From Achromobacter ruhlandii (GTDB taxonomy: Bacteria > Pseudomonadota > Gammaproteobacteria > Burkholderiales > Burkholderiaceae_B): DNA of 64,000 nucleotides. The position numbers were made by a program, and so were the translations under genes. Under the pieces are notes generated by a model. It saw only the letters and a list, made by a program, of their open reading frames with translations. It had not been told where the DNA came from and made no database searches. The stretch lies in assembly GCF_902859695.1 (NCBI RefSeq), contig NZ_CADIJL010000004.1, positions 248,001 through 312,000 on the forward strand, given 5' to 3'. This document shows positions 34,013 through 44,376 of this stretch, piece after piece (within the stretch, counting starts at the first letter, position 1; each line of letters begins with the position of its first letter).

Positions 34013-34984
34013 ATGCCTATGGAAGCTTCGACCGTCCAGCTCAATGACATCGCCTTGTTCGTAGAGGTTGCCAAGCGCAAGAGCTTCAGCCTGGCCGCCC
34101 GGGCCCTGAACATGCCCACCTCGACGCTGTCACGCCGTATCAACGAGCTGGAACGGGCGATCGGGCTGCGCCTGATCAACCGCAACACCCGGCGCCTGGA
34201 CCTGACCGAGGCCGGCGCGGCCTACATGAGCCGCTGCCAGGGCCTGATCGACGAGGCGCGCCTGGCGCACGAACAGCTGCAGGCGCTGTCGGGCGGCCCG
34301 TCGGGCAATCTGCGGGTGTCGATGCCCTACAGCCTGGCGATCTGGCTGCTGCCGGAGACGATCAACGATTTCACGGATCGCTATCCGGAGGTGGAATGCG
34401 AGTTCGACCTGAGCATGATGACGGCGTCGGACGCCCAGGGCACGCCGTTCGACATCGTGCTGCGATTCGGCCGCAACAGCGACTATCCGGTTGCCAGCAT
34501 CGACAATGGCAACGGCAATGGCGGCGCGCCGGTGCCGCGCAGCGATGGCGCGGTGGTGCAGGAGCTGGTGTCGCTGGACAACTATCTTTATGCCTCGGAC
34601 CGCTATCTGGAACGCTTCGGCGAACCGAAGACGCCGTCGGACCTGACGCGGCACCAATGCCTGCGCACGACGATCGATGACGCGCATTCGCATTGGACGC
34701 TGCACAATGGGCGGGTGAGCGAGCAGGTGCCGGTGAGCGGGCATCTGGCGGCGAACAACATGAGTATCGCGGGGACGCTGGCGGGGCTGGACCTGGCGAT
34801 CACGCGGATGCCGCATTGCCAAGCGCTGGATCCGATCATCAAGCGCAATTCGTTGCGAAGGGTGTTGCCAGGCTGGTCGGTGGATCCGATTTCGATCTAC
34901 GTGGTGTATCCGTCGAGTATTCAGCCGGCCAAGACGCGGGCGTTCATGGATTTCATTCGGCCTAAGTTGGGGCCGGCTGAGTAG
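34013..34984 (+). CDS. LysR-family transcriptional regulator
   Basis: A 323-residue LysR-type regulator. The N-terminal winged helix (LNDIALFVEVAKRKSFSLAARALNMPTSTLSRRINELE) resembles the CrgA/DsdC-like branch, and the effector-binding domain follows from residue ~90 (GNLRVSMPYSLAIWLLPETI). It has an unusual Asn/Gly-rich loop near 165 (NGNGNGGAP). A second in-frame ATG two codons later (34019) is equally possible. It is divergent from the glycosyltransferase, and its target is unknown. Repeat copy B begins 24 nt after its stop. Confidence 0.9.
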   Translation: MPMEASTVQLNDIALFVEVAKRKSFSLAARALNMPTSTLSRRINELERAIGLRLINRNTRRLDLTEAGAAYMSRCQGLIDEARLAHEQLQALSGGPSGNLRVSMPYSLAIWLLPETINDFTDRYPEVECEFDLSMMTASDAQGTPFDIVLRFGRNSDYPVASIDNGNGNGGAPVPRSDGAVVQELVSLDNYLYASDRYLERFGEPKTPSDLTRHQCLRTTIDDAHSHWTLHNGRVSEQVPVSGHLAANNMSIAGTLAGLDLAITRMPHCQALDPIIKRNSLRRVLPGWSVDPISIYVVYPSSIQPAKTRAFMDFIRPKLGPAE

Positions 34985-35008: not shown

Positions 35009-35330
35009 TTCTTGAGCCGCGCGTGGCGGGATCGGCGGGGATGGCGGGGCTACGATTGCGGTCCGGAGCCTTCGCTCCGGACTGCCCCTTCCTCATCTTC
35101 GTCCAGGCCTTCGGCCTTCCCTTCAGATTCCGTCGGGCGCATCTACACGCCCCGCCATCCCCGCCGATCCCGCCACGCGCTCACGATGAGACTTAGCCTC
35201 GGGCGTTGGGGCGTTCGGCTTGCTTGGCGTGCTGGCGACTATCAGGAGTGGAGCGGAGGATCTTGCGGGGTCCGCCTCAAACCGGCCGCGCGGGCGGCCT
35301 TTTGAGGCTTACGCGGTGTCTTGCGTCGGG
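35009..35330 (+). repeat. Dispersed palindromic repeat, copy B
   Basis: Part of the 654 bp gap between the LysR gene and the small basic-protein gene. It begins GTTCTTGAG 24 nt after the LysR stop. The palindrome runs 35019-35180, with arms of about 31 bp that differ from those of copy A yet match each other perfectly. The shared core (GGGGCTACGATTGCGGTCCG, hairpin CCGGAGC-CTT-GCTCCGG region, GGGCGCATCTACACGCCCC) is inside. The extension continues with GCTTGGCGTG, GGATCTTGCGGGG, the hairpin CTCAAACCGGCC...GGCCTTTTGAG, and GGTGTCTTGCGTCGGG. From 35331 to 35470 I see nothing. Confidence 0.85.
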
Positions 35331-35477
35331 ATGATGGCGCTCTCGCGTGTGCGAAGGGGCCAATCAGCTGGCCTGTCGATGCATGTCCTGCACACGGAGC
35401 GGACCGAAAGGGGGCTTACCAAGCCAAATGCGTCCCTATTTTTTGACGCTCCCGGCTCTCCAGGCAAGCCCCCCAAA

Positions 35478-35507
35478 TTGGCGCCCTCGCCACTTTCAGG
35501 CTAGAAT
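35478..35507 (+). promoter_or_regulatory. Sigma-70 promoter of the small basic-protein gene
   Basis: A -35 TTGGCG (35478-35483) and -10 TAGAAT (35502-35507) are separated by 18 bp, giving a transcript start near 35514 and a leader of about 125 nt before the ATG at 35639. The leader contains a CCGG-TTGTG-CGGCCGG hairpin. Confidence 0.6.
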
Positions 35508-35638
35508 GCCGAGTTACCCAATTTCCCCGCCAGCCCAGTTTCCGGTTGTGCGGCCGGGTCGAAGACACCCGCAAGCCAAGCTTGAAGGCGGCTTCGCCCC
35601 GCTAATTCGATTTCCGCAAATTCAACAGGAGAATCAAC

Positions 35639-35767
35639 ATGGCTGAACGCAAACGCGTGCGTCGCAACACCCTGGAACGCCGTTGCTTGGGCAAGGCCTT
35701 CAAGCGCTTGTTCGTCAAGTCGCCCAAGGGTGTGTTCAAGATGCTGGAAAAGATCAAGCGCGTCTAA
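35639..35767 (+). CDS. Very small, highly basic protein (42 aa), unrecognised
   Basis: I do not recognise this protein. The frame ATG...TAA encodes 42 residues: 16 are Lys or Arg, only 3 are acidic, and there is one Cys (Cys16). The N-terminal half is Arg-rich (MAERKRVRRNTLERR) and the C-terminal half alternates Lys with hydrophobic residues (FKRLFVKSPKGVFKMLEKI), as an amphipathic helix would. Codon choice is that of a well-expressed gene. It has a promoter 130 nt upstream, an AGGAGA ribosome-binding site, and a strong terminator 46 nt after the stop, so it is a complete transcription unit. Binding of rRNA, DNA or membrane lipid is plausible, but none is shown. Confidence 0.75.
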   Translation: MAERKRVRRNTLERRCLGKAFKRLFVKSPKGVFKMLEKIKRV

Positions 35768-35812
35768 ATGACCCGCCCGCCGCGCCAGGTTCCTGGCATG
35801 CGGCCCGATCAA

Positions 35813-35848
35813 AAAAATCCCCGCTGGTGCGAACCGGCGGGGATTTTT
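35813..35848. terminator. Strong bidirectional intrinsic terminator
   Basis: A 16 bp stem (AAAAATCCCCGCTGGT paired with ACCGGCGGGGATTTTT, one G-T pair) closed by a GCGA tetraloop, with A-run and T-run flanks. It ends the small basic-protein transcript on the plus strand and the kdgK operon on the minus strand. Confidence 0.9.
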
Positions 35849-36008
35849 GTTTGGGCGGCGGGGCACGCCAGCGCTAGACAAACGGCCCGGAGAGGCTGTC
35901 GGGAGGGCGACCCGCGCGTTGCCGGCAGGTCATTGTCGACGGGTCGCCCATGGCGCCGGCGGTGGGTGCCGGCCCCACTCGTTGGCGCCCCCCCTTCAGC
36001 CCCAGGCC

Positions 36009-36932
36009 TCAACCCCGCAGCTTCGCCAGCACCTGCTCGGCGCGGGGCAACGGGTCGACCGCGCCATAGCCCAGCGTCGACAGCGCCGCCGCCACGTTGG
36101 CATAGCGCACCGCGTCGGCCCAGTCGTCGCCCTGGCAGCGGCGCGCCAGCAGGCTGCCGGCGAAGCAGTCGCCGGCGCCGGTGGCGTCGACCGCGTCCAC
36201 GCGCAGGGCCGCGACCGGGGTGCGGGTCTTGCCGTCGTCGATGATGGAGCCGTCCTTGCCCAGCTTCAGCACCACCACGCCGGTGGCGCCGGCGTCGCGG
36301 ATCCAGTCGAGCGTGCGTTCGGGGTCGTCGTTGCCGGTCAGGTGCTGCATGTCGTCCATGCTCGGCAGGAACAGGTCGGCGTGGCACAGCGCTTCGCGCA
36401 GCACGGCGCGGGCGCGGTCCAGCGGCCACAGGCGCAGCCGCAGGTTCGAGTCCAGGCTGACCTGCACGCCGGCCGCGCGGGCGCGGGCGATGGCGGCGAA
36501 GACCGTGTCGCAGGCGCTGGTGCTGATCGCCAGGCTGATGCCGGAGACGTGCAGGAAGCGGGCGCGTTCGATCAGGCCGCCGTCGAGGCTGGCGGGCGTC
36601 ATCAGGCTGGCGGCCGAGCCGCGGCGCAGGTAACTGAAGGCGTGGCCGTCGGGGCCGTGCTGCACGAAGTACAGGCCGGTGTGCGCAGCGGCATCGACCT
36701 CGACGCCCGAGGTGTCCACACCCTCGTCGCGCCACAAGGCCAGGAACTGCGCGCCGAAGGCGTCATCGCCGACGCGCGTCAGGTAGGCGCAGCGCGCGCC
36801 CTGGCGGGCGGCGGCGATGACGGCGTTGGAGGTGTCGCCGCCAAAGCCTTGCAGGTATTGGCGCTGGTCCTGGCTGGTCTGGTTCAGTTCGACCAGCGGT
36901 TCGCCTAGCGCGACGATATCGAAATCAGCCAT
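36009..36932 (-). CDS. kdgK: 2-keto-3-deoxygluconate kinase (PfkB family)
   Basis: The 307-residue kinase phosphorylates 2-keto-3-deoxygluconate to KDPG. PfkB family features are the N-terminal ALGEPLVELNQ, the sugar-binding QGFGGDTSNAVIAAARQG, and the C-terminal anion hole and base DATGAGDCFAGSL. The ATG at 36932 starts directly at the beta-strand (MADFDIVALGEP). It overlaps the upstream KDPG-aldolase gene by 8 bp, so the kinase product is handed to the aldolase encoded in the same operon. Other PfkB sugars are possible, but the aldolase partner supports KDG. Confidence 0.87.
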   Translation of the reverse strand: MADFDIVALGEPLVELNQTSQDQRQYLQGFGGDTSNAVIAAARQGARCAYLTRVGDDAFGAQFLALWRDEGVDTSGVEVDAAAHTGLYFVQHGPDGHAFSYLRRGSAASLMTPASLDGGLIERARFLHVSGISLAISTSACDTVFAAIARARAAGVQVSLDSNLRLRLWPLDRARAVLREALCHADLFLPSMDDMQHLTGNDDPERTLDWIRDAGATGVVVLKLGKDGSIIDDGKTRTPVAALRVDAVDATGAGDCFAGSLLARRCQGDDWADAVRYANVAAALSTLGYGAVDPLPRAEQVLAKLRG

Positions 36933-38512: not shown

Positions 38513-38616
38513 ACACATGCCTCACGATATAGGCAATTATTCCATATCGCCGCGCCCGGAACCAGCCATTGGCCGTCGTCCGGAGCCGCCCCCTCCCTCA
38601 GGCTACGATACCGTCC

Positions 38617-44376
<5,760 letters not shown>

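Follow-up and report, generated by a model that had tools for sequence, protein, structure and literature searches.

A conserved 42-residue basic protein of Achromobacter and its relatives that may be a lineage-specific RNA-binding protein

A frame of 42 codons in Achromobacter ruhlandii is virtually certain to be a real protein-coding gene, and its strongly basic product may be a housekeeping protein specific to some Burkholderiales lineages, one that binds RNA and is probably associated with the ribosome, a reading to which we give a probability of about 0.45 from the sequence evidence. This ribosome or RNA reading is suggested by the strict conservation of the basic residues, the retention of the gene in small genomes, codon usage like that of a well-expressed gene and the autonomy of the gene, taken together. 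The DNA analysed, referred to below as the window, is a stretch of 64,000 nt (contig NZ_CADIJL010000004.1, positions 248,001-312,000, forward strand).

The small gene, its signals and its neighbours

The small gene and its surroundings in the window are as follows.

34013-34984, + strand: LysR-type gene, upstream of the small gene
35478-35507, + strand: sigma-70-type promoter TTGGCG-N18-TAGAAT from the promoter scan, followed by the discriminator GCCGAGTTA
35514-35638, + strand: 5' leader of about 125 nt, beginning at the presumed transcription start
35527-35553, + strand: GC-rich leader hairpin, near-invariant in 14 aligned Achromobacter-type leaders
35627-35632, + strand: Shine-Dalgarno sequence AGGAGA, 6 nt 5' of the ATG of the small gene
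35639-35767, + strand: small basic gene, ATG to TAA, 42 codons, protein MAERKRVRRNTLERRCLGKAFKRLFVKSPKGVFKMLEKIKRV
35813-35848, strand unspecified: intrinsic terminator hairpin, possibly bidirectional, between the small gene and the convergent kinase gene
36009-36932, - strand: PfkB-type kinase gene, convergent, downstream of the small gene

The evidence strongly favours the original prediction of a complete small gene with transcription of its own. In a consensus scan of positions 35200-36200 the promoter listed above was the sole promoter-like site, compared to a mean of 0.1 in shuffled sequence. The terminator stem (16 pairs, -28.3 kcal/mol, z -4.7) was equalled by none of 200 shuffles, and with its A run at the start and U run at the end it could also serve the convergent kinase gene. 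The consensus scan returned 3 terminator-like sites where 1.3 were expected. Two are on the + strand, one in the leader (35587-35603) and one in the gene itself (35684-35706), and the third is a - strand site inside the stem; as the stem was missing from its + strand sites, the terminator call rests on the folding energy and shuffle test together with the relatives.

Among 125 distinct upstream regions of relatives, 120 have a Shine-Dalgarno core, compared to about 15 in shuffles, and a -10/discriminator core (TANAAT with a similar discriminator), a pattern drawn up after these upstream sequences had been seen, was found in 65 of the 125, compared to 0 when they were reverse-complemented, 1 when reversed and 0.55 in mono-nucleotide shuffles. 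The distance from the -10 to the ATG varied widely. Of 126 distinct regions behind the gene, 109 have a terminator-like hairpin; after shuffling the count was 40, and in the stretch 500-630 nt downstream it was 6 of 126. Some Bordetella-type leaders have other GC-rich stems in place of the Achromobacter-type leader hairpin, which is a possible regulatory element. Two more sites of the promoter motif (with at most one mismatch) occur in the same genome, 5' of frames which we take, by recognition, to be ndk-like and purE-like, so the idea of a promoter special to the small gene was rejected and the promoter looks like an ordinary housekeeping type. A single copy of the small gene was found in its own genome, a second match there (E 0.044, inside a 634-residue frame) being taken as chance. 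The small gene is a single-copy autonomous unit with its own promoter and terminator, independent of its neighbours.

Within the family the small gene often adjoins a long uvrA and precedes ettA, and in 23 of 100 loci one of the first four called genes downstream is of the EttA cluster, on the same strand in 22 of them, some of the called "genes" in these neighbourhoods being shadow frames of GC-rich DNA. In three loci from small genomes (L227-L229) the next called gene, 16-222 nt downstream and on the same strand, belongs to the EttA cluster. NCBIfam names EttA in L229 and in L159 and, across the window and these two loci, UvrA, EttA, MinE and MinD. Ten loci read from other families have different neighbours, and the uvrA/ettA surroundings were not seen there; as this setting was seen within the family only, a function read from the neighbours was rejected. 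The UvrA-like frame of the window itself (38569-44376, + strand) codes for 1935 aa, roughly double the 924-943 positions of the UvrA models, with several stretches that match them, and in many relatives frames of 1.8-2.0 thousand residues like this long UvrA adjoin the small gene. In L227 (genome G133, 0.82 Mb) the uvrA-like gene is spread over four frames (215, 376, 405 and 308 aa), through decay or sequencing error, and the small gene is intact.

Purifying selection, codon usage and distribution

The original prediction had made the gene depend on conservation with a bias towards synonymous substitution, and when this was put to the relatives the frame proved to be conserved, with pN/pS 0.175 (pS 0.584, pN 0.102) from 4,656 pairwise comparisons among 97 distinct coding sequences of 42 codons, a ratio in which pN is lowered by the collection of members through protein similarity. 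For this set 158 of 180 loci were kept, each sequence being taken to its stop and other lengths dropped, so that all 97 frames are open by construction. Codon position 3 accounted for 65% of all differences among them, and the identical protein was encoded by 20 distinct coding sequences, among which 16 of the 42 codons vary. These comparisons demonstrate, at the level of the predicted protein, purifying selection with synonymous change dominant. One genome (G046, at loci L203, L205 and L232) has a match that changes frame near residues 24-28, a pseudogene or a sequencing error, and this was the sole broken copy noticed among the strong matches of the family.

The share of CGT among arginine codons was 36% in the small gene and 9% in uvrA, being higher in the small gene in 71 of 74 matched loci, and 35% compared to 25% in the comparison with ettA, where it was higher in 24 of 33 matched loci; the loci are related, and so these counts are not independent. 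The rpoB frame of the same genome uses CGT for 31% of its arginine codons. The arginine codon profile is thus consistent with that of a well-expressed gene.

A search of the family (E <= 0.1) gave a match in 241 of 268 genomes and in 206 of the 222 near-complete ones. Two of these matches, in genomes G143 (E 0.009) and G155 (E 0.09) of genus g22, are weak and probably chance, and the remaining 14 genomes of g22, which has 16, gave none; outside g22, by subtraction, 239 of 252 genomes match, at E 3.1e-9 or better. Genomes of the family giving no match are mostly incomplete assemblies, and from one that is 95% complete (G198) the small gene is absent, profile search included. All 43 genomes of the own genus gave a match, 39 of them identical across the 42 residues, and the small gene persists in all 8 of the 0.7-0.8 Mb genomes of genus g21, which from their size and kinship we take to be Kinetoplastibacterium-like symbionts, and in one 0.9 Mb genome of the family. 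Such amino-acid identity within the genus and retention below 1 Mb suggest that the protein probably belongs to the basic machinery of the cell.

Named carriers among the best 80 of 280 matches are Achromobacter, Bordetella, Schauerella, Advenella, Castellaniella, Alcaligenes, Pusillimonas, Pollutimonas, Paralcaligenes, Paracandidimonas, Pigmentiphaga, Pelistega and Lautropia. Burkholderiales is the order of both Achromobacter and Lautropia, and we infer that it is the one sampled in the genome search. In 250 genomes drawn evenly across the order, a profile search found 26 carriers, 25 with strong matches (E < 1e-17) and one (G590) cut by a contig end, and most of the order therefore lives without the small gene. 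By family the carriers were 7 of 8 (f1), 5 of 5 (f174), 6 of 6 (f193), 5 of 7 (f180), 2 of 7 (f191) and 1 of 6 (f214), with no strong match in the remaining families of the sample, so that five further families of the order have clear relatives, in a patchy pattern. The f191 members have diverged, and the one of the two that was read has 50 residues; a diverged 50-residue form in which a C-terminal extension replaces the usual FKMLExIKK end was seen at positions 1492-1641 of both L082 and L083.

An rpoB tree of 27 rows (30 genomes were asked for and rpoB was not found in 3, the row of G542 is partial and two g22 genomes are included) needed 7 changes of presence, 5 of them forced by well-supported branches, and 70 of 500 shuffles were as low. 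Both of the g22 genomes branch outside the clade formed by the rest of the family, and so absence in g22 need not be loss. The patchy presence and this tree suggest that loss, transfer or divergence past the point of detection has left the small gene scattered across the order. Outside the order nothing convincing was found in 274 genomes of the class, the weak matches there (best E 0.004 and 0.02; L032 and L033 were inspected) being taken as chance. Searches of 50,697 phage records and 72,556 plasmid records (BLAST, low-complexity filter on) and of viral contigs gave no match to the small protein; with no occurrence in phage, plasmid or viral records and with 0 PHROGs, a phage or plasmid protein was rejected.

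No family in Pfam (E <= 1), NCBIfam, PHROG or PADLOC (E <= 10) matched the window protein, and scans of 22 and of 65 members against family models gave stray matches, the best at E 0.055. Searched against the PDB, the single sequence gave one chance match (malate dehydrogenase, E 1.7) and the profile gave none. No paper was recognised, from titles and the openings of abstracts, as describing the small protein, and the strings RRNTLERR, NTLERRCL, ERRCLGKAF and RRNTLERRC were found in none of the papers searched. Passages of a Bordetella pertussis Tn-seq paper (PMC6531889) hold nothing on the small gene. Among Ribo-seq and comparative-genomics papers on small proteins, none was recognised as describing the protein or footprints or peptides for it. 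The earlier description of the protein as unrecognised thus stands as regards a convincing match in Pfam, NCBIfam, PHROG, PADLOC or PDB, but frames of 42 codons are within reach of common gene finders, and so the small gene may already be annotated as a hypothetical protein.

Possible function

The small protein has 42 residues, 8 Lys and 8 Arg among them, a mass of 5.1 kDa, a pI of 11.8 and a net charge of about +12.5 at pH 7. Seven residues (R6, E13, R14, C16, K19, K22 and R23) are invariant in an alignment of 65 members, which excludes distinct ones of 29, 34 and 56 residues (one frameshifted, one cut by a contig end), and 19 further positions are at least 90% conserved, the non-basic N10, T11, L36 and E37 being among these. 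The Arg-rich N-terminal segment reads RxRRNTLERRCLxKxxKRLF and the C-terminal end FKMLExIKK is predicted to be a short amphipathic helix; as a helix, segment 30-42 has an amphipathic moment matched by 20 of 2000 shuffles, whereas segment 11-26 is not amphipathic (737 of 2000 shuffles were as high). No hydrophobic segment was found in the sequence. AlphaFold2 gave low-confidence helices near residues 13-24 and 30-41 (mean pLDDT 68 and 69 for the two models), and with neither model did Foldseek retrieve a chain.

The strict, mostly basic and position-specific pattern of conservation fits what would be expected of nucleic-acid contact, and the original suggestion of nucleic-acid binding is likewise consistent with the composition and the near-invariant basic motif. 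We propose that the near-invariant basic segment would bind structured RNA, most probably rRNA, and that the small protein may be associated with the ribosome or its assembly in this lineage specifically, in the manner of bTHX, Sra and the mycobacterial bS22 and bL37. It is possible, although less likely than not, that it is a ribosomal protein not yet described, or a factor dedicated to ribosome assembly, in Achromobacter, Bordetella, Alcaligenes and some other Burkholderiales lineages, overlooked perhaps for want of high-resolution ribosomes from the lineage. It is small, basic, widespread in its lineage (the family) and written in the codons of a well-expressed gene, traits which are not exclusive to ribosomal proteins. 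Counting against a place on the ribosome are the patchy presence in the order, the lack of a convincing match to a ribosomal protein, the low-confidence models, the lack of a trade-off with bTHX (below) and the neighbours outside the family, which have no common link to translation.

The same composition, small size, autonomy and retention would also fit a nucleoid- or RNA polymerase-associated basic peptide, whose Arg-rich segment would bind DNA or the polymerase and modulate transcription genome-wide, and the chromosomal neighbours indicate no single pathway. We consider this unlikely, as no DNA-binding family was matched and a mere neutraliser of charge should vary more than the near-invariant motif does. 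A little less likely again is a regulatory or adaptor peptide for one conserved protein partner, such as a protease, a nuclease or a translation factor like EttA. That E13 and C16 are invariant and other non-basic positions highly conserved suits such a contact, as does the EttA-cluster gene close downstream in 23 of the 100 loci, but the ettA neighbourhood was not seen in the ten loci read from other families and a terminator-like hairpin usually lies 3' of the small gene.

The original prediction had offered membrane binding beside nucleic-acid binding, and through the amphipathic C-terminal helix (segment 30-42) this is possible, but the strict conservation of sequence makes it the less likely of the two. 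A cationic amphipathic peptide of the membrane-binding or antimicrobial type, for which leaderless bacteriocins and type I toxins are the comparison class, appears improbable, because segment 11-26 is not amphipathic and there is no hydrophobic segment, and because the gene is single copy, has no phage, plasmid or viral match and is kept in most of the family, small genomes included. A type I toxin or leaderless bacteriocin as such was rejected, the sequence being neither hydrophobic nor fully amphipathic and the occurrence not patchy in the family, where 241 of 268 genomes match. That the functional product is the transcript itself and not the peptide (a small RNA or leader peptide) is very improbable in spite of the near-invariant Achromobacter leader hairpin, the strong terminator and one terminator-like site in the leader, as the coding sequence changes mainly synonymously, the leader varies strongly in length and sequence between genera, a terminator-like hairpin follows the frame in 109 of 126 regions and the window has no Rfam match at the gathering score (nor a tRNA gene).

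A lineage-specific RNA-binding protein, probably on the ribosome, accordingly remains our preferred reading. A protein that matches no family in the libraries searched, in a group that includes human and animal pathogens and soil bacteria, offers a role that is directly testable, and if it does sit on the ribosome these bacteria would own a ribosome component that is missing from the standard inventory.

Comparison with known small ribosomal proteins

A known ribosomal protein was rejected for want of a convincing match in Pfam, NCBIfam or PDB chains; the comparisons here are with proteins of similar kind. Both bTHX and Sra are lineage-specific additions to the ribosome, and bTHX is basic. Like the small protein, bTHX (30S ribosomal protein Thx, TIGR04560) is very small, lineage-specific and patchy in the same order, where it was found in 31 of the 250 genomes, but its model has 26 positions and shares no sequence match with the small protein (0 NCBIfam families, E <= 10). 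The genome of the window has no TIGR04560 match at E 0.01. A trade-off between the two was rejected, since 3 of the 26 carriers (G542, G561 and G686) have both and about 3 would be expected. In family f191, bTHX alone is present in G559 and G684, the small gene alone in G646 and G750, and neither in G604, G720 and G779.

bS21 (RpsU, TIGR00030) is likewise small and basic, and AERKR occurs in the C-terminal part of many members. The homology which this shared AERKR suggested was rejected, as hhalign gave it a probability of 0.1% globally and of 0.6% locally over 4 columns, with a bS21 profile made from 20 sequences out of 25 loci. Replacement of a lost bS21 by the small gene was ruled out, because bS21 is present in 246 of the 250 genomes of the order, carriers included.

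Passages of PMC6133939 describe mycobacterial bS22 and bL37, which have been located on solved ribosomes, as proteins that only mycobacteria have or that E. coli ribosomes lack. With these the comparison is of function only, and the small protein is without a convincing match to a PDB chain. The small-protein families that have come from Ribo-seq and comparative genomics are similar in another respect, being, like the gene described here, short conserved frames outside any domain family.
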